This document shows, in pieces, positions 12,366-54,249 of a DNA stretch of 61,782 bases. The stretch comes from Candidatus Hydrogenedentota bacterium (lineage in GTDB: Bacteria > Hydrogenedentota > Hydrogenedentia > Hydrogenedentales > CAITNO01). Every line of letters begins with the position of its first letter. The stretch's first letter is position 1. The stretch is taken from contig JAAYBJ010000226.1 in assembly GCA_012730105.1 (NCBI GenBank), forward strand, positions 1-61,782, given 5' to 3'. The notes below the pieces were generated by a model. That model was not told the origin of the DNA. It ran no database searches and saw nothing but the letters and a program-made list of their open reading frames with translations. A program made the translations under genes and the position numbers.

Positions 12366-13664
12366 ATGTCAATTTCCAAAGAAGCCCCGGGTTTGAAGAT
12401 GATTCCTATCTCAGATCGGACGGCAAACACCTGTGGGAGATTTATTGCTGTCCTATTGCTCCTTATCGGTGTTATGCAAGGGGCAGTATCCGAGGATACC
12501 TGGAGGCTGGAAGCGCAGCAACGCATCGAACAGATTCGAAAATCTGATTTGACGGTTCGCGTAACGGACGCTGACGGGAAGCCGTTGTCCGGTATGCCTG
12601 TGCATGTCACCATGATCCGCCACGCCTTTCCCTGGGGTACCTGTGTGAAGGCGCAACGTATAACCGGAGATTCGCCGGATGATGCGATCTACCGGGGAAA
12701 AGTAGTTGAGTTGTTCAATTGCGCGGTCCTTGAAGATGCGCTGAAGTGGAACGCGTGGCATGGGGCGTACGGCCCGAGTTTTACCCGCGAGAACACGGAG
12801 GCGGCGTTAAAGTGGCTCAAGGAAAGGGCCTTTCGCCTCCGGGGACATTGTCTGGTGTGGCATGGATGGGAAAACCTGCAACCTTGGGGAGCATCGCTTG
12901 CCGACGATTTGCCGGACCTGCGGCGGCGTATACTCGAACATATTGATGAATTGTCCAAATTCACCCGGGACTACGTGGACGAATGGGATGTCGTCAATGA
13001 ACCGGTAAATGTTAACGAGGTGCTCACGGTACTGGGTGAGGAGGTTCTGGCGACGTGGTTTCACCGCGCCCGCGCGGCACTGCCGGATTCCTGTCGACTG
13101 TTCATCAACGAATATAACATTGTGGAACCTTTCAGTGCCCGTACGCGGGATGACTATGAAGCGATTATCCAGGCATTACTTGACGCGAAGGCGCCCCTGG
13201 AAGGGATAGGATTTCAAAGCCACTTTCAACTTCCGCCCGAATCGCCCGTTGAAGCCCTACAGGTCTTTGATCGCTTCGCCCGTTTCGGGCTGCCGATCGT
13301 GGTTACGGAATTTGATGTGAATACCAAGGATGAAGAGCGGCAGGCGCAATTCACACGTGATTTCCTTACCGCCGCCTTCAGTCATCCTGCCTGCACCGGT
13401 TTTGTCTTCTGGGGATTCTGGGAGGGCTCCCATTGGCGTCCGGACTCCGCGTTGTTTCGAATGGACTGGTCGGAAAAGCCGAATCTTGCCGCGTATCGTG
13501 ACTTGGTCTTCAAAGAATGGTGGACCGACGAAACGGGAAGAACGAACGAGAACGGAGAATTCGTGCTGCGCGCATTCAAGGGAACGCACACGGTTATTGT
13601 CGGCAATCAGGAGAAGGTGGTGGAGATAGGGGACAGTGCTGCTAAGATGGAGGTTATTCTTTGA
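12366..13664 (+). CDS. GH10 endo-beta-1,4-xylanase-type glycosidase
   Basis: Retaining glycosidase of family GH10. From ATG 12366, residues 20-40 are a signal peptide (FIAVLLLLIGVMQGAVS), residues 55-80 a short beta-domain common before planctomycete-type GH10 modules (LTVRVTDADGKPLSGMPVHV), then the TIM barrel. The acid/base is E212 in WDVVNEP and the nucleophile E315 in VVTEFDV; HCLVWHGW provides the conserved His-Trp substrate-binding strand. A C-terminal beta-segment (GRTNENGEFVLRAFKGTHTVIV) follows. Substrate is probably xylan. It lies 32 nt after the symporter gene, so it is probably the last gene of that operon although xylan has no obvious link with sialic acid. Confidence 0.9.
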   Translation: MSISKEAPGLKMIPISDRTANTCGRFIAVLLLLIGVMQGAVSEDTWRLEAQQRIEQIRKSDLTVRVTDADGKPLSGMPVHVTMIRHAFPWGTCVKAQRITGDSPDDAIYRGKVVELFNCAVLEDALKWNAWHGAYGPSFTRENTEAALKWLKERAFRLRGHCLVWHGWENLQPWGASLADDLPDLRRRILEHIDELSKFTRDYVDEWDVVNEPVNVNEVLTVLGEEVLATWFHRARAALPDSCRLFINEYNIVEPFSARTRDDYEAIIQALLDAKAPLEGIGFQSHFQLPPESPVEALQVFDRFARFGLPIVVTEFDVNTKDEERQAQFTRDFLTAAFSHPACTGFVFWGFWEGSHWRPDSALFRMDWSEKPNLAAYRDLVFKEWWTDETGRTNENGEFVLRAFKGTHTVIVGNQEKVVEIGDSAAKMEVIL

Positions 13665-13814
13665 TGACAGCGCTATTCCCCTCGTTCCCAAACGGAAGAA
13701 GGCCCAAAGGACGCCTCGACGCGTACACTGAAAAACCACAGAAGACAGGATTTTCCCGTGCCCGTCACGCGCAACATTAGTCACCAGGAAGTCATGCTAA
13801 AAGTTTCTTAACTA

Positions 13815-13823
13815 TGGTATAAT
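13815..13823 (+). promoter_or_regulatory. Extended -10 promoter element
   Basis: TGGTATAAT matches an extended -10 (TGnTATAAT) exactly. The -35 region is poor. The ATG of the following toxin-like frame is only 7 nt downstream, so a transcript from here would be leaderless or nearly so. Confidence 0.45.
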
Positions 13824-13829
13824 TTTCCA

Positions 13830-14072
13830 ATGGTCGAATACAGATATACAGATTATTTTGACAATGAGGTATTAAGGAAGCGTTCTTACTTAAGAAAAGC
13901 ATGGTGTGTATAGGTAGTCGAAAATGCCGAAAAAGTTGAATCCCAAGAACAGAATCGGTATCGGTTTTGGGCTAGGATTCCGGAACTTGAAAATCGGTAC
14001 CTGCGTGTTGTTACCTTGGATGACAAGATTACCATACATAATGCTTTTCCCGATAGGAGGTTTAAGTTATGA
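13830..14072 (+). pseudogene. Small toxin-like gene interrupted by an amber codon
   Basis: An 80-codon frame reads MVEYRYTDYFDNEVLRKR, then WCV and a TAG at 13911-13913, then in the same frame VVENAEKVESQEQNRYRFW, LRVVTLDDKITIHNAFPDRRF and a stop at 14070-14072. Small proteins of this type (a DUF4258-like fold with an HNAFPDR end) are the usual upstream partner of DUF2283 proteins in putative toxin-antitoxin pairs. It overlaps the DUF2283 start by ATGA. The single nonsense codon would leave 27 residues, so this partner looks inactivated while its neighbour is intact. A sequencing error or amber suppression are alternatives. Confidence 0.65.
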
Positions 14073-45207: not shown

Positions 45208-46185
45208 ATGAGCACGATGACGCTACAATGTAATTTATGCCCCAAAGGCTGCGTTATCGAACACGGCCAAAGCGGCGAGTGCCGGATACGCGTCAATATT
45301 GATGAGCGGCTTGTTGCCGTCACCTATGGCCACCCCTGTTCCGTTCATATCGATCCCGTTGAAAAGAAGCCTATGTTTCATTTCCTTCCGGGCACCGGAA
45401 TCCTGAGCATTGCGACCGTGGGCTGTAATCTCCATTGCAAGAACTGCCAGAACTGGGAGATCTCCCAGGAAAACCCCGAGAACGTGTCCGCAGAGGAATT
45501 GTCTCCGGAACGGGTGCCTGCGCTGGCCAAGGAATACGGCTGCCAGTCCGTGGCCTATACCTATACCGAGCCGCTTGTTTATTACGAGTACACGCTGGAC
45601 TGTTCCATGCGCGCCCGGGAGGCGGGCCTTAGAAATGTGATCGTGACGGCAGGCTATCTCAACGAAGAGCCCCTGAGAAAACTCTACCCCCATATCGACG
45701 GCGCGCAGATCGATATCAAATCCATGTCGGACGCTTTCTACCGTGACATCTGCGACGCGTCGCTGGGGCCGGTGCTGAATGCGTGCGTGCTGGCGCGGGA
45801 AATGGGCGTGCTTGTGGAAATAACCAACCTGGTGATACCGACACTGAATGACAGCGACGAGGAGTTGAGGAAACTTGCCCGATGGGTGGCAGCCCATCTC
45901 GGCGCGGAAACGCCGCTCCACTTTTCACGGTTCTTTCCCCAGTACCGGATGAAGAACCTGCCGCCCACCCCCTCGGAAACGCTTGTGCGTGCGCGGGATA
46001 TCGCCCGCGAAGAAGGGCTCTGCCATGTCTATATCGGCAACCTTTCACTGCCGGATTCGGAAAACACCTATTGTCCCGCGTGTAAACAGTTGCTGATAGA
46101 ACGGCGCGGGTTCAGTGTGCTGACAAACAACATTAAGTACGGAAAATGTCCATGCGGGAAAGAACTTTACGGCATATGGCAATAA
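45208..46185 (+). CDS. amrS: AmmeMemoRadiSam-system radical SAM enzyme
   Basis: 325-residue radical SAM protein. The N-terminal CNLCPKGCVIEHGQSGEC zinc- or Fe-S-type knuckle is followed by the radical SAM cluster motif C73/C77/C80 in CNLHCKNCQNW, HFLPGTGILSIATVGC just before it, and a C-terminal Cys motif (CPACKQLLIERRGF, KCPCGKELYG). This is the AmrS layout. It probably modifies an unknown substrate with the Memo and AMMECR1 partners encoded directly downstream. The reaction of the system is not established. The next gene overlaps by 10 nt. Confidence 0.9.
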   Translation: MSTMTLQCNLCPKGCVIEHGQSGECRIRVNIDERLVAVTYGHPCSVHIDPVEKKPMFHFLPGTGILSIATVGCNLHCKNCQNWEISQENPENVSAEELSPERVPALAKEYGCQSVAYTYTEPLVYYEYTLDCSMRAREAGLRNVIVTAGYLNEEPLRKLYPHIDGAQIDIKSMSDAFYRDICDASLGPVLNACVLAREMGVLVEITNLVIPTLNDSDEELRKLARWVAAHLGAETPLHFSRFFPQYRMKNLPPTPSETLVRARDIAREEGLCHVYIGNLSLPDSENTYCPACKQLLIERRGFSVLTNNIKYGKCPCGKELYGIWQ

Positions 46186-46361
46186 ATCGGCGGGGATTCC
46201 TGCGGGTGACGACGGCGGCGATCCTGGCGCCGATTCCACGGTTCGCCGGGCATGGCATGGTCCGGGGGTATGTGGAGGCGGTACCTGCGCGCCGTTACCC
46301 GGGTCCGCTACGGAAAATAACGGAAAAGGAAGTAAAAATACCGGGCCATTGGGCGGGTTGA
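46176..46361 (+). CDS. Small Tat-leader protein in the AmmeMemoRadiSam locus
   Basis: 61 residues from ATG 46176 (MAINRRGFLRVTTAAILAPI, a twin-arginine leader). The mature part is only about 35 residues with RRYPGPLRKITEKEVKIPGHWAG. It overlaps the radical SAM gene by 10 nt. Its placement between amrS and the Memo-AMMECR1 gene and the consistent RRxPGxLR...PGxWAG pattern suggest a dedicated substrate or partner, perhaps carrying a modified residue. I recall similar small Tat proteins in related loci but do not know a name. Confidence 0.6.
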   Translation: MAINRRGFLRVTTAAILAPIPRFAGHGMVRGYVEAVPARRYPGPLRKITEKEVKIPGHWAG

Positions 46362-46398
46362 GGACGCGCACGGTCCCGTGACCGGAAAGGATACGGCA

Positions 46399-47997
46399 AT
46401 GCCTTGGAGACATGTGCGACGGTTAGTGGTTCTGTTCCTGCTGCTCGTGGTGTTCCTGGCAGGATTGCAGGCCTTTCTTTTTCCGAGAATGATCAAGTAC
46501 GTCAAGGCGAAAGCGATTCAGGAGGTTCCGGAAATCATGGAAACGACACAAGCCAAAAAGGTTTTCAATTCACCCCTCGCGGGAATGTGGTATGACGCCA
46601 ATGCGTCCCGGCTCAAAAGCGAGATTGACGGGTATCTCGCGGGGGCGGATCCCGCCCCGCTGGAGCAGATGCAGGCCCTGGTGCTGCCCCACGCGGGATA
46701 CCGTTATTCAGGCGGCGTGGCGGCCTTCGGTATCCGGAAAATTGCCGGGGCAGCCTACACGCGTGTTATTGTCATGGGCCCGTCGCACCGGGTCCGCATG
46801 CATAACGCTGCCCACGTTTCCGATGCAACCCATATCGTCACCCCTCTGGGCGAAGTGCCTTTGGATGTGGACGCCTGCGCCGAACTCCGCAAACACCCGG
46901 AATTTCGTGCGGTCCGGGGCGTGGATGAAACGGAACACAGCGTCCAGATCCAATTGCCGCTCCTGCAAGCGGCGTTGTCCGGCTTCAAACTTGTCCCCAT
47001 TGTGGTGGGTGACGCGGATGCGGCAACCCTGCAAACGATGGCCAAAGTACTACTGGGTATCACCGATTCCAGGACGCTGGTTGTGGCCAGCAGCGATTTT
47101 ACCCATTACGGTGCCAACTACGGCTATGTACCCTTTGAAGAGGATGTTTTCGCGAATTTGGAGAAACTCGACATGGGAGCATGGGAAAAAATCCGGGACA
47201 AGGATGTCGACGGGTTTAACGAATACGTGAACGCGACAGGCGCCACCATCTGCGGACGGCACCCGATTTCCATTCTCCTTTCTATGCTTCCGGAAGCCTC
47301 CCGGGCACATTTGCTCAAGTATGACACGTCGGGCCGCATGACGGACGACCCGGACATGTCAGTCAGTTATTTAAGTCTTGCCTTTACGGGAACATGGCCC
47401 GAGAACAAGGCGGCATTTGTCAACAGCGAACCAGCTGGGACGGCGCTTTCCGAAGAGGATAAAGCGCAATTGCTTAAACTGGCCCGGGGTATGCTGGAAA
47501 CCTATGTGAAAACCGGCAAGACCGCTTCGGCGGAGGCGCTCGGTGTCACGATCACCCCGGGCATGCGCCAGGTGATGGGCACTTTTGTTACCCTGACCCT
47601 GGACGGCCAGTTGCGGGGCTGCATCGGCGAGATATTTCCGAGGCGGCCCCTCTACGAGGCCGTGATGGAACGCGCCGTGGATGCCGGAATCAACGACCCT
47701 CGATTCCGGTCGGTGACGGAAAAAGAGTTGCCCATGCTCCACTATGAAATATCAGCGTTGACGCCGCCTGTCCCGGTCGCTTCCTATCAGGATATCGTGC
47801 TGGGCAGGCACGGGATGGTGATCCAGAAGCAAGGCCGCAGTGCGGTGTTCCTGCCCCAGGTCGCGCCGGAACAGCACTGGACGCTGGAGGAAACGCTTAC
47901 CCATCTTTCCCTCAAGGCGGGGCTTTCCCAGGACGCATGGAAAGAAGGCGCTTCCTGGACCGTTTTCGAGGCCATTGTCTTTGAAGAAGAACATTGA
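46399..47997 (+). CDS. amrB: Membrane-anchored Memo-AMMECR1 fusion
   Basis: About 532 residues. One N-terminal membrane helix (LVVLFLLLVVFLAGLQAFLF) places the rest outside the cytoplasm. Residues about 60-345 are Memo (AmrB): LPHAGYRYSGG, VMGPSHRV, DETEHSVQIQLPLLQ, SSDFTHYG, ATICGRHP with a conserved Cys and His set for metal binding. Residues about 365-530 are AMMECR1 (AmrA): LRGCIGEIFPRRPLYEAV and DPRFRSVTEKELPMLHYEIS. Memo and AMMECR1 are separate in most loci; the covalent fusion and membrane anchor are notable. ATG 46399 has AAAGGA upstream. Confidence 0.9.
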   Translation: MPWRHVRRLVVLFLLLVVFLAGLQAFLFPRMIKYVKAKAIQEVPEIMETTQAKKVFNSPLAGMWYDANASRLKSEIDGYLAGADPAPLEQMQALVLPHAGYRYSGGVAAFGIRKIAGAAYTRVIVMGPSHRVRMHNAAHVSDATHIVTPLGEVPLDVDACAELRKHPEFRAVRGVDETEHSVQIQLPLLQAALSGFKLVPIVVGDADAATLQTMAKVLLGITDSRTLVVASSDFTHYGANYGYVPFEEDVFANLEKLDMGAWEKIRDKDVDGFNEYVNATGATICGRHPISILLSMLPEASRAHLLKYDTSGRMTDDPDMSVSYLSLAFTGTWPENKAAFVNSEPAGTALSEEDKAQLLKLARGMLETYVKTGKTASAEALGVTITPGMRQVMGTFVTLTLDGQLRGCIGEIFPRRPLYEAVMERAVDAGINDPRFRSVTEKELPMLHYEISALTPPVPVASYQDIVLGRHGMVIQKQGRSAVFLPQVAPEQHWTLEETLTHLSLKAGLSQDAWKEGASWTVFEAIVFEEEH

Positions 47998-48006
47998 GGC
48001 ATCATC

Positions 48007-51000
48007 GTGAACGGAAAGCGCGGCTTTCTTCCGTTGGTGGGACTGGGCTTTTTTTCCCTCATCGCCCAATCGCTGCTGTTTCGGGATGTCGTCGCGACTT
48101 TTGAGTACAACGAGCTGGGCATCGGTGTTTTCTACGCAAGCTGGTTGCTGTGGATTGCCTTGGGAGCGTGGGTGGGACGGCGCGAAAGCCTGCCGCTTCG
48201 CAAGGGTGCGGCATGGTTTCCCCCAGCCCTGCTCGCCTATATCCCGGCCTTTCTGCTGCAGCATGTCCTGATCATAAACGCGCGGTGGCTGGCGGGGGTA
48301 CAGGCCTATGAACTCTTCCCGTTGGCGGTGATGTTAGGCCTGTTGTTCCTGGTAAATGCCCCGGTGAGTTTCCTCACGGGCTTTTTGTTCCCGACCGGGT
48401 GCCGCTGGGTGGAGCGGGACTCCAGCCTTCCCGCGGCGCGGGTCTATGCCTTTGAAACCTTGGGGGCCTGCCTGGGCGGCTTGTTTGTAACGGCGCTGCT
48501 CCTGGGCCGTGTGTCCGGACAGGTGGTCTTCGCGTGGATGTGTTTTATCGCGTTTTTGGCGTTGCCTTTCGGGGTGGGCTTCGGGCGCGGTTCCCGCCGC
48601 AGGTTCGTGTTTTGGATGGTCTTCCTTGCCGTTGTCGTGCTGGCGGGCCTGGGGGATGTGCCCGGCAGGCTGGGAAGGCGCTGGACCGGGACGGAAGACC
48701 GGGCGGCATGGACCCGGCTGCTTCCACTTGAAAGCTATATCGGAAGCAGGAACACCGCCCGGGCGCGCTATTTATACGGCACGCGGGAAGGACAGCTTAT
48801 GGTGATGTCCGGCGGCGGCGTGTGTGAGTCTTTCCCCGGAGGTGACCACGCGGCCGAGGTCGTGGCGCTGCACTTGGCGCAGCATCCGGACGCCAGCGAG
48901 GTCCTGGTCTTCGGCGCCGACACGCTCGGCATGTGCGCGGCCTTTGCATCGATTCCAAGTATCGCCCGGGTAACCTGGCTCCATCCCGACCCGGAATATC
49001 CCGCGATGCTTTCGGAAATGCTTGCCGGGCGCCTGCCCGGGAAACTAGAAGCGGTTCCATCTGAGTTAAGGGCGTTCATTCGGGAAACATCTCGTCGCTT
49101 TGACCTGGTCCTGCTTTACCTTCCGGATGTGACGACGCTTACGCTCAACCGTTATTGTACGCGGGAGTTTTTTGCGGAACTTGCCGGTATTCTGTCTGAA
49201 CAGGGAATGGTGGGCGTCCGCGTCAGCGGTGGGGCGAACTATGTCGGGGCCGAATTGAGCGATCCCGGCGCCATGATGCTGGCGACCCTTGGAACAAGTT
49301 TCAAAAACACGGTGATCAAACCGGGGGATGAGACGTGGCTGATCGCATCCAATGGCAACGGTGTGGAACAGTCGGCGGAGATACTGTTTAAGCGGTACGG
49401 CGGAATCGAGGGGGCGGAGGACCTTTTCCCGCCCGAAGGCGTGCTCGCCCTGTACGCGCCGGAACGAGTGGCATTTCAGAGGAGCGCCTATGAAAAGGCC
49501 ATGGCCGATGCGTCCGGCGATGCGGTGGTGAACACGGACAATCTCCCGAAAGCCCTCAAGTTCGGTTTGTTCCTGGCGCTGAAGCAGGCCGGATGGCGAA
49601 GGGTTTCCGGGGCCCTGCGTTATGCGCTTCAAGCGGGCATCTGGCTCTTTCTGACGCCGATACTGATCTACGGGGTGTTCAGAGCCGTATATGTGCTGAA
49701 AGGACGGGGAAAGGAGCGGTCGCTGTTTGACAGTCATTTCTTGATGCTGTCCACCGGGCTTGTGAGTATGGCCTTCAGCATCGTGCTGATGTTTGTTTAC
49801 CAGTCCCGTTTCGGTTCCCTCTTCCTGGAAATCGGCATGGTCACGGCCTTGTTCATGTTCGGCGGGGCCGCGGGCTGCGCGGCGGTGAGTTGGCTGCTGC
49901 GGCATCGTCCCGGTCTCTCGGGACGATGTCTTTTGGGAACGTGCCTGCTGCTTCAGGTGCTCCTGCTGGCAGTAATCGCAGTGTCTCCTGAGGGGCCGAA
50001 ACCGTTCTGGCTGGGCCTGTTCGTCCTTGGCGGCGGATTTACCGGCGTATATTTTCCCATGGCCGCGAAGCGGATGATCGCCTCGGGAATCGATGCCGTG
50101 CGGACGGGCGCTGTGCTGGAAATGTGCGATACCTTGGGCGGGGCCTTGGGCGCATTCCTGACTGGACTGTTGCTGTTGCCACTGGCGGGTGTTTCCGTGA
50201 CGATTGCACTGCTGGCGGGCCTTGTGGCGGTGAATATCGCGGCGCTGTTGACTCCGACACGGAATACCATCGCGGCCGGGGACTGGTTCGCAAGAGTGTC
50301 CCGTCCTTTGGGATACACGCTTGCCGGCATCGCGTGTTACGCGCTGCTGGTATCCCATCTTGCAGCCAATGTCGAGGCGGCAAGACAGGAGCGGAGCATC
50401 GAAACACATGCGCGTGTACTGGCGGGAACAGCGGAACTGCAAAAGGAAACCACAATCCGGGAGGATGGAACAGCGGCGGAATATCTGTCAGTTGCTCCGG
50501 AGGCGGATAATCCGGGAGGCTATGTGTTTGATAGTCGAGACTGGACAGGCCCCGTAAACGGCTACGGCGGTCCCATGCGCCTGTTGGTATATACCTGCCC
50601 GGACGGCGCCCTGCGGGATTATGAGATCGTGCGCCATCAGGAGACGCCTGCTTATCTGCGCATAGCGCAGGCGGAAAAACTGCGCCTGCTGGGGCGCTGT
50701 TTGTTTGAGTCCGCTCCTTTCAGGGAGGTGGATGCCGTAAGCGGCGCCACCGTGACCAGTGAAGCAATCACCCGTATCCTGGAGGAGGCTGGTCGTGGAT
50801 TTGTGCAATACGCGTTGGGCAGAAATATGGAAGGTTACGACAGGTCTCCGGGTAGTTCCCGGCGTACCAGGAATACGGGGCTTCGTGATTTTTCCCTTCT
50901 CGCCCTGATGCTGGGCGCTGCAATCGTGGTGCGTTTACGGCCGGGTGTATGGCCGAGGCGTGTCTTGCTGGCCTTTTCGTTGATAGTGGCGGGCATGCTG

Positions 51001-51828
51001 TTGAACCTGCAATATTCCATGCAGCAGGTGATCATGCTGGCGGACTTCAATCCCGGTATGGTCGGCTTGACGGGCGGCTTCTTCCTGGCGGTAGTCGTTC
51101 CTCTATCGGTGTTGTTTTTCGGTAATGTCTACTGCGGTTACCTATGTCCCTTCGGCGCACTGCAGGAATTCCTGGGAGACCTTGTCCCCGGCAGCGGGCA
51201 CATTCCGGAAAGAGGAACCTGGCGTTACGGTCGCGCCGTCAAATATGTATTTCTCTTCTGTTTGCTGGTTTTGTTCGCAGGCGTCCGTGACGCTTCTGTC
51301 CTGCGGGGCGATATCCTGATCACGCTGTTTGGCGGCGCCCGGGAGCGACCCGTTGTAGTGCTCGCGGTTGCGGCGCTTGTCCTGTCGTTCGCATTCCCCA
51401 GGTTCTGGTGCCGTAACCTCTGCCCGGCGGGCGCCTTCCTGGCCCTGTTAAACGGGGCCAGGCCGCTGCGCCGCTGGATGCCCCGGCAGCACCCCGCCCA
51501 ATGTCATCTGGGCGTCAATACGCGATCGGAACTTGACTGCATTCACTGTGACAGATGTGTGGTTCGACAGAACATTGCCGTTCCGGAGCGGGACTCGCGT
51601 TCGACAAAACGCCTGAACATTCTGTTCTTGCTTTTTGTGTTGCTGGCATTTATTGGGGCTATGGCGTTGACCGCGACTTCCACTGCCACGTGGCTTGACA
51701 ATGCAAGGATACAGGAGGCGCCGGCCGGTGTTGGCAAACCGAGAACTGTCGACACGGTTGAGATCAAGCGTCTGATACAAGAGGGCAGCCTGTCGGACAG
51801 CGAAGCGGATTTCTACACCAGCAAATAG
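48007..51828 (+). CDS. Giant membrane flavo-ferredoxin fusion (spermidine-synthase-like + FMN + NosR/NapH-like)
   Basis: 1273 residues from GTG 48007, 9 nt after the Memo-AMMECR1 gene. Residues 1-225 have six or so membrane helices, 230-500 a spermidine-synthase-like Rossmann fold (VLVFGADTLGMCAAF, LYLPDVTTLTLNRYCTREFF) whose catalytic Asp position looks altered, then another helix bundle to 800. Residues about 830-930 are an FMN-binding domain with flavinylation motif DAVSGAT (Thr near 914). The C-terminus has NosR-like helices with CGYLCPFG near 1041, CRNLCPAG near 1134 and CIHCDRC near 1180. Predicted transmembrane electron carrier, likely needing an ApbE not seen here. Confidence 0.82.
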   Translation: MNGKRGFLPLVGLGFFSLIAQSLLFRDVVATFEYNELGIGVFYASWLLWIALGAWVGRRESLPLRKGAAWFPPALLAYIPAFLLQHVLIINARWLAGVQAYELFPLAVMLGLLFLVNAPVSFLTGFLFPTGCRWVERDSSLPAARVYAFETLGACLGGLFVTALLLGRVSGQVVFAWMCFIAFLALPFGVGFGRGSRRRFVFWMVFLAVVVLAGLGDVPGRLGRRWTGTEDRAAWTRLLPLESYIGSRNTARARYLYGTREGQLMVMSGGGVCESFPGGDHAAEVVALHLAQHPDASEVLVFGADTLGMCAAFASIPSIARVTWLHPDPEYPAMLSEMLAGRLPGKLEAVPSELRAFIRETSRRFDLVLLYLPDVTTLTLNRYCTREFFAELAGILSEQGMVGVRVSGGANYVGAELSDPGAMMLATLGTSFKNTVIKPGDETWLIASNGNGVEQSAEILFKRYGGIEGAEDLFPPEGVLALYAPERVAFQRSAYEKAMADASGDAVVNTDNLPKALKFGLFLALKQAGWRRVSGALRYALQAGIWLFLTPILIYGVFRAVYVLKGRGKERSLFDSHFLMLSTGLVSMAFSIVLMFVYQSRFGSLFLEIGMVTALFMFGGAAGCAAVSWLLRHRPGLSGRCLLGTCLLLQVLLLAVIAVSPEGPKPFWLGLFVLGGGFTGVYFPMAAKRMIASGIDAVRTGAVLEMCDTLGGALGAFLTGLLLLPLAGVSVTIALLAGLVAVNIAALLTPTRNTIAAGDWFARVSRPLGYTLAGIACYALLVSHLAANVEAARQERSIETHARVLAGTAELQKETTIREDGTAAEYLSVAPEADNPGGYVFDSRDWTGPVNGYGGPMRLLVYTCPDGALRDYEIVRHQETPAYLRIAQAEKLRLLGRCLFESAPFREVDAVSGATVTSEAITRILEEAGRGFVQYALGRNMEGYDRSPGSSRRTRNTGLRDFSLLALMLGAAIVVRLRPGVWPRRVLLAFSLIVAGMLLNLQYSMQQVIMLADFNPGMVGLTGGFFLAVVVPLSVLFFGNVYCGYLCPFGALQEFLGDLVPGSGHIPERGTWRYGRAVKYVFLFCLLVLFAGVRDASVLRGDILITLFGGARERPVVVLAVAALVLSFAFPRFWCRNLCPAGAFLALLNGARPLRRWMPRQHPAQCHLGVNTRSELDCIHCDRCVVRQNIAVPERDSRSTKRLNILFLLFVLLAFIGAMALTATSTATWLDNARIQEAPAGVGKPRTVDTVEIKRLIQEGSLSDSEADFYTSK

Positions 51829-51976: not shown

Positions 51977-53179
51977 TCACGCCTTGCCTGGCGGACTTTC
52001 CCCTGTACGATCGCCGTGAAACTTTCCTTCAGGCGGTTTCGAACGTTTTCCGACAGCGAAGGATATGGAACGGGTGGGACAAACCTCGATGCAGGTGCCG
52101 CAGGCGAAACAGTCCGGTATAACCCGGTTTCTTTTTAATACGGCGTCCATGACGGTGGAGGGACAGGCCTTGGCGCAGGCTTCACAGGCGATACAGGTGT
52201 CGTAGTTTACCTTAATTTTGAAGAGGCCGATTTTTTCAAAAAGCCATCCCACCAGGCCGAAGGGACAAAACATGCTGCACCAGGGACGGTAGGTAAAAAG
52301 ACTTAAAAGAAGAAGGACAAAAAGAAAAATACCCCCTGTAATTCCCAGGTACTGCGGTTTATATATTTTGAACGGATCGATAGGGTCAACAATATCAACA
52401 GCCCATAAAAAGGCCGCCACGGTAAAAAGAATAAAAAACAGGACGCGAATGCTGTTCGACAGGACAAAAGGAATTTTGAACTGTCTGACATTCCCTTTTC
52501 GGTCTTTCGGATCCCGGTTTAGTCTGAATATCAGGTCCTGAAGCGTTCCGAACTGACATCCCCAGGCACAAATAAATTTGTTTGCCAGAATGATCATAAG
52601 TAGGAAAACGGACAGGGCGATTATTCTCGGGAGAAAAAGCACTCCCTTGGAGCCGAGAAGTATAATGGCGTCCTTGACCGTGCCCATTGGACTGGGGTCG
52701 GATCCGAGAACCACGCCAAAGAGCACTACCGATGCGGTATACAGACCGATCCTTGCCCGTGGTGTTAAAGATTGTCGGTGTAAAAGGACAAGGACCACGG
52801 TAAGGAAAGCGATCCACAAAGCAAACTTTACCAGGATTTTGATCCAGTTTTTGGATTCCTGTTCGATGTAGATGGCCAGCGTTTTATCGACACGCGCGCA
52901 TACTTCTGTTTGGCTCAAGGTGAAGTCGCCGATTTTTATCCGGAGGTCATCCTCCGAATCAAGTTGAAGCGCCTTTTTCAGTACTGGTTCAGGTACGTTG
53001 TTGGCCTGTCCGAACTCGGCGATGGTCATGTTTTCATGTATTGTCCATTCCTGGATAACGGGGCCCTCTTCCGGTTTTCCGCCCCATACCAGTGTGGAAA
53101 GAAATGACAACGTAAGGATAATACCGATCAGCGAAACGAATTGAATGGCGACGGTAACTTTAGCCGGCGTTTTTTTCAT
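51977..53179 (-). CDS. NapH/MauN-like membrane polyferredoxin
   Basis: 400 residues, about five or six membrane helices with paired FICAWGCQFG and WCSMFCPFG motifs (the NapH/NosR CxxxCP signature), then two 4Fe-4S motifs CIACEACAKACPS and CFACGTCIEVCPT. A large N-terminal periplasmic loop (EWTIHENMTIAEFGQANNVP and following) is predicted. It carries electrons between quinol or ferredoxin and a periplasmic acceptor. It is convergent with the 1273-residue fusion and may serve the same redox chain. The start ATG 53179 follows GGAAAAAG. Confidence 0.85.
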   Translation of the reverse strand: MKKTPAKVTVAIQFVSLIGIILTLSFLSTLVWGGKPEEGPVIQEWTIHENMTIAEFGQANNVPEPVLKKALQLDSEDDLRIKIGDFTLSQTEVCARVDKTLAIYIEQESKNWIKILVKFALWIAFLTVVLVLLHRQSLTPRARIGLYTASVVLFGVVLGSDPSPMGTVKDAIILLGSKGVLFLPRIIALSVFLLMIILANKFICAWGCQFGTLQDLIFRLNRDPKDRKGNVRQFKIPFVLSNSIRVLFFILFTVAAFLWAVDIVDPIDPFKIYKPQYLGITGGIFLFVLLLLSLFTYRPWCSMFCPFGLVGWLFEKIGLFKIKVNYDTCIACEACAKACPSTVMDAVLKRNRVIPDCFACGTCIEVCPTRSISFAVGKRSKPPEGKFHGDRTGESPPGKA

Positions 53180-53268: not shown

Positions 53269-54249
53269 TTATTGCGGTTGTTCCGGTGAAATCCACCACG
53301 CCATGGCGTCGGAACCGTTGCCGGTCTTGATTACGCCTGCGAGGGAGAGTGTGTCCAGGTCGATCACATGTACGCCGTCCTCATGTTCACTGCCGACAAA
53401 GGCGCGCGTTCCGTCCGGGGAAAGTTCCAGGCCGATGGCCTGCCTGCCGACGGGAAGCCGCTTGAGCTCCTTGTGCGAGTCCGCCTCCAGAACCACCAGT
53501 TCCCCGATGTCGGTCCAACTGGCCACAAGAACCCGCTGCCCGTCCACGGTAAAGCGGATGCGTACCGGCATGCCCGGGCACGGGAAGGTTTCCACGGCGG
53601 TATTTGATGACGTGTCGATGATGGTTATCGAGCCCGCTTCCTGATTGCCGACCCAGAGATGTTTCCCGTCAGGGGTGAAGCACATGCCTTCCGCGCCCTT
53701 GCCGCAGGGCACTTGGGTGATCAATTCCCCGGAAGCGCGATCGATGACGGAAACATTTTCAGTCACGATATTCGCAGTGTAGATCCGTTTTCCGTCCGGC
53801 GACACCAGTACCATGTGCGAAATCTTGCCGTGGGTCGGGATGGCGCGGGTGACGGCGTGGGTGCCGGTGTCCACCTCAACCACGTAGCCGCTTTGGCCGG
53901 CGGTGAAATACGCATGTTTTCCGTCAGGGGCGATGGCGGCGCCGTGGATGCGGCCATAGTCTCCGGTGGATATCTGTTTCACATGGTTGCGGCGCACAAG
54001 GTCGATTACGGAAATGGTATTGCCCGGAGGCGCGTAATTGGACAGATAGGCAAAACGCCGGTCGGCGGAAAGCACAATTTCATGGGGATTGGGGCCTGTG
54101 GGAATCTTGTCCACAGGCTTGAGGCTCGCCGGGTCGACAAAGGACATGGTGTCTTCATGTTTGTTGCACACGAGCAGGAAGGGGTTGGTAGCCTCGGCTA
54201 CCGCGAAGAGGGGCAGCAGCAACGCTGACAGAAAGAAAAGGATTCGCAT
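53269..54249 (-). CDS. YncE-like secreted beta-propeller
   Basis: 326 residues with a signal peptide (RILFFLSALLLPLFAVAEA). Repeated blades (ISVIDLVRRNHVKQISTG, VSVIDRASGELITQVPCG, ITIIDTSSNTAVETFPCP, VHVIDLDTLSLAGVIKTG) are YVTN/NHL-type seven-bladed repeats. Likely a binding or scaffold protein. Located 89 nt from the polyferredoxin start, same strand, and so perhaps one transcript. No enzymatic signature. Confidence 0.8.
   Translation of the reverse strand: MRILFFLSALLLPLFAVAEATNPFLLVCNKHEDTMSFVDPASLKPVDKIPTGPNPHEIVLSADRRFAYLSNYAPPGNTISVIDLVRRNHVKQISTGDYGRIHGAAIAPDGKHAYFTAGQSGYVVEVDTGTHAVTRAIPTHGKISHMVLVSPDGKRIYTANIVTENVSVIDRASGELITQVPCGKGAEGMCFTPDGKHLWVGNQEAGSITIIDTSSNTAVETFPCPGMPVRIRFTVDGQRVLVASWTDIGELVVLEADSHKELKRLPVGRQAIGLELSPDGTRAFVGSEHEDGVHVIDLDTLSLAGVIKTGNGSDAMAWWISPEQPQ

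Follow-up and report, generated by a model that had tools for sequence, protein, structure and literature searches.

A candidate extracytosolic radical SAM system: an AmmeMemoRadiSam operon with a Tat-leader mini-protein and a flavin/Fe-S membrane fusion

On which side of the cytoplasmic membrane, and with which partners, does the AmmeMemoRadiSam gene set act? The question is raised by four forward-strand genes in the window, the whole 61,782-nt stretch of DNA analyzed here. These are amrS (45208..46185), encoding the radical SAM enzyme of the set, which lacks a leader; a gene for a 61-residue Tat-leader mini-protein with the C-terminus PGHWAG (46176..46361), which starts within the final codons of amrS; amrB-amrA (46378..47997), encoding a Memo-AMMECR1 fusion with a signal anchor; and a gene for a giant 1273-residue membrane fusion with FMN and Fe-S features (48007..51828; FMN_bind, Fer4_5, and NosR/NapH similarity), beginning 9 nt past the Memo-AMMECR1 stop. 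Coordinates and profile matches confirmed the initial annotation, which had described this gene set, the fused and singly anchored Memo and AMMECR1, and the 9-nt gap to a DAVSGAT/NosR-NapH-like fusion. Memo (B), AMMECR1 (A), and AmrS (TIGR04337) scored 205, 154, and 372 bits against cut-offs of 26, 99, and 220, placing the locus within the AmmeMemoRadiSam set.

AmrS was found in 56 of the 68 genomes of the window's order. Nineteen of these genomes carried an AmrS of the window type, and in all 19 the mini-protein gene lay directly 3' of amrS, usually overlapping its end; because a homologue follows amrS in every such genome, the gene arrangement is not a product of chance. The amrBA fusion and the giant protein came next in 17 of the 19, some loci being cut by contig ends, and in G028 and G047 the two were encoded in the same genome on contigs away from amrS. 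The initial annotation had made its interpretation depend on co-occurrence of the small protein and the giant fusion with AmmeMemoRadiSam genes in related genomes; these counts (19/19 and 17 plus 2) bear it out, and the genetic coupling of an electron conduit to these genes, which it had also proposed, is kept across the window-type genomes of the order.

The window AmrS belongs to the radical SAM superfamily by its PF04055 match, by a CxxxCxxC motif (Cys73, 77, and 80) that was invariant across 22 AmrS relatives, and by the fold of a relative. It also possesses additional N- and C-terminal Cys motifs. The closest solved fold was PFL-activating enzyme (Z 24, 2.2 Å over 225 residues, using a model of the relative L103). 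The window's genome encodes a second, leaderless AmrS paralogue scoring 274 bits and lacking a mini-protein (G000:C283:10440-11441), and a second Memo gene on a different contig (G000:C88:505-1365); the two may represent a set that works in the cytosol.

To our knowledge, no radical SAM enzyme acts outside the cytosol, since both SAM and a low-potential electron are considered accessible inside only. A profile scan of GTDB genomes across many phyla gave 80 AmrS loci nearest to the query, most of them derived from metagenome-assembled genomes. By a simple rule, a few of whose assignments are doubtful, AmrS carried an N-terminal leader before its first Cys motif in 57 of the 80 loci (40 Tat-like and 17 Sec/TM). 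L105, L108, and L112 were Tat-type by the rule and Sec/TM-type by eye, the reading by eye preceding the TatC search, and the doubtful L128 was counted as leaderless in the AmrS tree. The charge pattern of the leaders was N-in/C-out (47 vs. 6, P = 6e-9). TatC was present in 21 of 23 genomes with a Tat-type AmrS leader and in 5 of 16 with a Sec/TM-type leader (Fisher P = 1.4e-4 with classes assigned by eye and 0.013 with automatic classes). Leader type thus tracks TatC, which independently points to use of the leaders in export, and the comparison across loci lends good support to export of leadered AmrS. Neighboring Memo proteins at these loci were mostly leadered, some with lipobox-like leaders. 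AmrS of the window clade is leaderless, and TatC is encoded elsewhere in the window's genome.

The mini-protein, which we propose to be the Tat leader of AmrS supplied in trans, occurred beside leaderless AmrS only. It was found at 9 of 23 leaderless loci, these nine belonging to other phyla, and at 0 of 57 leadered loci (Fisher P = 3.5e-6, related loci being only partly independent) in a search that allowed RK besides RR, with L102 and L114 carrying RK forms. In the AmrS tree, the carriers formed one group (SH-aLRT 94) that also contained L155 and the cut locus L091. The leaderless AmrS of L155 (7911-8960) had no mini-protein detected beside its gene, and the Memo protein there showed a leader-like N-terminus. 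All 22 window-type mini-proteins, three of them from other phyla, share the twin Arg and a C-terminal W-x-G (W at -3, G at -1) and are otherwise divergent; in the window, the W-x-G lies at 46350-46361.

The mini-protein tails of five other loci, L092 (REALFYHSDDGLAG), L093 (KKADYYRELAG), L099 (KEADFYRPHDRAG), L102 (TARYYSQNDSLAG), and L114 (KEARHYEKLAG), resemble EARYYEKL, the EAxYY segment located N-terminal to the core in AmrS proteins with a leader. When the mini-protein profile was compared with leadered AmrS, none of about 300 column permutations aligned as well, and the same held for the tail alone. For the window-type mini-proteins, the alignment covered the Tat part only (P = 0.0015), and the same profile comparison detected no similarity between the window clade tail (PGxWxG) and the AmrS N-terminal segment, so that homology of this tail to the AmrS segment remains unsupported and orthology within the window clade is argued from position and the Tat part. 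The initial annotation had suggested that the small protein is a substrate. Its restriction to leaderless AmrS of one clade and the match of its tail, in several phyla, to the cis N-terminal segment of leadered AmrS do not favor that suggestion and fit a split-off leader serving as an export escort better. A RiPP precursor would be expected to accompany its maturase across the family, and the mini-protein is absent beside all 57 leadered AmrS; the sequence features of a Tat hitchhiker pair are all present, namely leaderless cargo, a partner with a Tat signal, and a genomic TatC. In the window clade, the mini-protein is a likely escort of AmrS.

The partner proteins point to the same side of the membrane. 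Memo (PF01875, 195 bits) and AMMECR1 (PF01871, 165 bits) are encoded in one frame with a single hydrophobic helix (residues 16-34, 46423..46479) preceded by a basic N-terminus, and orthologues carry Sec or lipobox leaders. The metal ligands of MEMO1, a protein of unknown primary molecular function, are H49, H81, and C244 (PMC11081632), corresponding to H105, H137, and C292 in the window Memo.

The giant fusion comprises, in order, seven TM helices, a SpeE-like domain, eight TM helices, an FMN domain, a NapH/NosR-like Fe-S membrane domain, and a tail ending in EADFY. The FMN_bind domain (residues 852-928, 50560..50790; PF04205, 42 bits against a cut-off of 22) contains the flavinylation motif DAVSGAT at residues 909-915 (50731..50751), so that the acceptor is Thr915, one residue beyond the Thr914 first named; FMN is predicted from this motif to be bound there covalently. 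The NapH/NosR-like domain (50881..51675), with Fer4_5 (PF12801) above its cut-off, has two CxxxCP motifs (1043 and 1135) and one CxxCxxC (1178). These Fe-S motifs are predicted to face the cytosol, and the FMN domain and the EADFY tail the outside, a combination of PF12801 membrane protein, extracytosolic FMN_bind, and flavinylation motif that characterizes NapH-like flavinylated systems. A search for apbE elsewhere in the genome, proposed as a check on flavinylation, found two genes, both on other contigs and thus neither within the gene cluster. At L041, a frame judged by eye to be ApbE-like (flavin transferase; 13282-13911) lies directly 3' of the conduit genes. Adjoining amrS in L092, L102, L103, L106, and L126 are FMN_bind-Fer4_5 proteins, some of which include a DsbD-like domain. 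Near other amrS genes there are DsbD_2 membrane proteins (L100, L105, L108, L117, L125, and L165) and Tat-leader DUF362 proteins (L115, L120, L144, L158, and L160), which are possibly alternative electron donors. Convergent with the window operon on the reverse strand are genes for a second NapH-like Fe-S membrane protein (51977-53179; Fer4_5, Fer4) and then a YncE-like beta-propeller (53269-54249), neither of which, as far as the analysis went, belongs to the conserved block.

The SpeE-like domain (residues 240-544, 48724..49638), which had been missed earlier, lies between the two transmembrane halves of the protein. An AlphaFold2 model of residues 1-786 had a pTM of 0.87, and Foldseek matched the domain to spermidine synthases (E = 7e-9). 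Helix count, the model, and the positive-inside rule (Lys+Arg density of 0.19 inside and 0.05 outside in 29 sequences) predict that the domain is extracytosolic. It is not a spermidine synthase by profile or active site: a Pfam search gave no PF01564 match in the window giant protein, and the DxxDP-type active-site Asp motif is replaced by an NLPxP-like sequence. The nucleotide-binding glycines are retained in most SpeE-like relatives, but the window domain has a degenerate glycine loop; with the Asp motif also lost, SAM binding by the window domain is uncertain. In about 35 of the 80 loci, a SpeE-like protein is a separate neighbor of amrS, and such unfused relatives pass the PF01564 cut-off. 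Within the order, 21 of the 22 genomes encoding an exported-type AmrS had a SpeE-like protein, the sole exception having its gene cut at a contig end, compared with 1 of the 46 others. G058 is the only genome of the order with a SpeE-like protein (C699:20-1954) and no detected AmrS, in an assembly that is 84% complete.

Beyond its last helix, the giant protein terminates in LSDSEADFYTSK; this predicted extracytosolic tail (51676..51825), a proposed AmrS-docking segment, closes with ..RLIQEGSLSDSEADFYTSK. Its extreme C-terminus, LSDSEADFY, carries the EAxYY-type segment of leadered AmrS, a feature also overlooked at first. The EADFY tail is kept in 15 clade members, being fused in the window, L033, L037, L080, and L088 and separate in ten loci as a small membrane protein encoded directly downstream. 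Tails of this type terminate an FMN-NapH protein encoded immediately 5' of amrS in L092 and L102 and a small TM or leadered protein in L091, L093, L094, and L114, and an EADFY-like segment is fused to AmrS itself in L103, L106, and L126. Against the N-terminal segment of leadered AmrS, the tail profile scored higher than any of 300 permutations. AlphaFold2 modeling of the L103 AmrS placed the segment behind a membrane helix and within the confident fold (blocks at pLDDT 97-98). Together with the tail similarities, this model suggests that AmrS is plausibly bound in trans by both the conduit tail and the escort. In L094 and L114, an EAxYY-type tail is present both on a membrane protein encoded upstream and on the Tat mini-protein encoded downstream, giving two possible tail partners for one AmrS.

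The reading we favor, at a probability of roughly 0.6, is an extracytosolic radical SAM system composed of Tat-escorted AmrS, a membrane electron wire, and a Memo-AMMECR1 partner. From the gene set and its conservation, the predicted topology, the exclusivity of leader and mini-protein, the tail similarity, and the TatC correlation, we infer export and docking of AmrS, an electron route, a SAM supply, and a substrate. The leaderless AmrS would fold and acquire its Fe-S clusters in the cytosol, where the mini-protein, as a split-off AmrS leader, would bind the folded enzyme and bring it in trans to the Tat translocase (hitchhiker export). Outside, the EADFY tail would keep AmrS at the membrane. 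Electrons from quinol or a cytosolic donor would enter the Fe-S centers at the cytosolic face, cross to the extracytosolic FMN on Thr915, and continue to AmrS, to the Memo metal site, or to both. Memo-AMMECR1, anchored on the same side, would be the AmrS partner acting on a substrate, and the SpeE-like domain is a possible binding site for SAM or one of its products. The extracytosolic redox pathway suggested by the initial annotation agrees with this topology and gene conservation. A more tentative generalization, which we put at somewhat under even odds, is that AmmeMemoRadiSam in many bacterial phyla is an extracytosolic radical SAM pathway with its own transmembrane flavin/Fe-S wire, SpeE-like SAM handling outside, and, in one clade, a split Tat escort. 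The weakest point of the export model is the route of SAM to the outside, and the low-potential electron outside is likewise unexplained. The strict W-x-G of the window-type mini-proteins, which exceeds what a plain docking tail should need, counts against the escort.

That same invariance speaks for the rival reading of the mini-protein as a substrate, in which cytosolic AmrS would modify the W-x-G, Tat would export the product, and Memo-AMMECR1 and the conduit would act outside. The overlap of its gene with amrS fits this reading, as does the resemblance of AmrS to PFL-activating enzyme, whose target is a glycine within a peptide, and MEMO1 binds glutathione close to its iron, the glycine carboxylate lying at H192 (PMC11081632). 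Its distribution is hard to reconcile with such a role: the mini-protein is absent beside every leadered AmrS of the same family and limited to one AmrS clade with a lost leader, and five loci of other phyla have the AmrS N-terminal segment as its tail in place of W-x-G. We therefore retain the substrate role as an unlikely rival. We give still less credence to the view that AmrS leaders are membrane anchors only or misassigned starts, AmrS being cytosolic and only Memo-AMMECR1 and the FMN domain lying outside. Leaders were indeed assigned by a simple rule, archaeal and some bacterial AmrS are leaderless and without a partner, and the roughly 17 Sec/TM-looking leaders are odd for an enzyme whose Fe-S fold forms in the cytosol, which counts against export. 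The tracking of TatC by leader type, the N-in/C-out charges, and the AmrS-matching tails on the predicted outer side of the fusion nevertheless argue for export.

A further possibility is that the giant fusion serves ordinary respiratory or flavin electron transfer and has no tie to the AmmeMemoRadiSam genes beyond adjacency; flavinylated proteins of the NapH-like kind are both common and modular (PMC8238504). This reading seems highly improbable, since the fusion follows amrBA in all clade members with enough contig except the two in which it lies elsewhere in the genome, its tail matches the AmrS segment, and the SpeE-like part tracks exported-type AmrS.

If AmrS is exported, SAM and a low-potential electron need delivery outside, and the operon offers a candidate for each. 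The analysis proposes where a widespread gene set of no known function acts and with which partners, and supplies parts that can be tested; it bears on human MEMO1 and AMMECR1. If the reading is true, a gene set shared with humans would sit outside the cytoplasm here. A split-off Tat leader escorting its former enzyme would be a new small-protein strategy. A search of literature available without subscription found no description of an exported radical SAM enzyme or of an extracytosolic AmmeMemoRadiSam; AmmeMemoRadiSam was named in five papers, but in no title or abstract. The protein families are known; an exported, escorted AmmeMemoRadiSam with its own conduit would be new to the literature searched.

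Comparison with known systems delimits what is distinctive. The locus matches the AmmeMemoRadiSam set (TIGR04335, TIGR04336, and TIGR04337) in that all three proteins exceed the curated cut-offs, but here Memo and AMMECR1 are fused and anchored outside, AmrS is probably exported via a trans leader, and an FMN/Fe-S conduit and a SpeE-like domain are added. AmrS shares its closest solved fold with PFL-activating enzyme but has extra Cys motifs, is probably exported, and adjoins no glycyl radical enzyme. The SpeE-like domain has the fold of the SpeE membrane polyamine aminopropyltransferase (PRK03612, PF01564) but no DxxDP-type motif and is predicted to lie outside the membrane. As in NapH-like flavinylated systems, an extracytosolic FMN_bind domain is combined with a Fer4_5 membrane protein bearing CxxxCP motifs (PMC8238504, in which Memo, AMMECR1, spermidine synthase, and radical SAM go unmentioned); unlike them, the window protein also includes a SpeE-like membrane protein and is linked to AmmeMemoRadiSam. 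Finally, Tat hitchhiker pairs such as the NiFe hydrogenase subunits likewise encode a leaderless cofactor protein with a Tat-signal partner (PMC10924467); in the window, where co-export is predicted from the genes, that partner is almost only a leader and a short tail.
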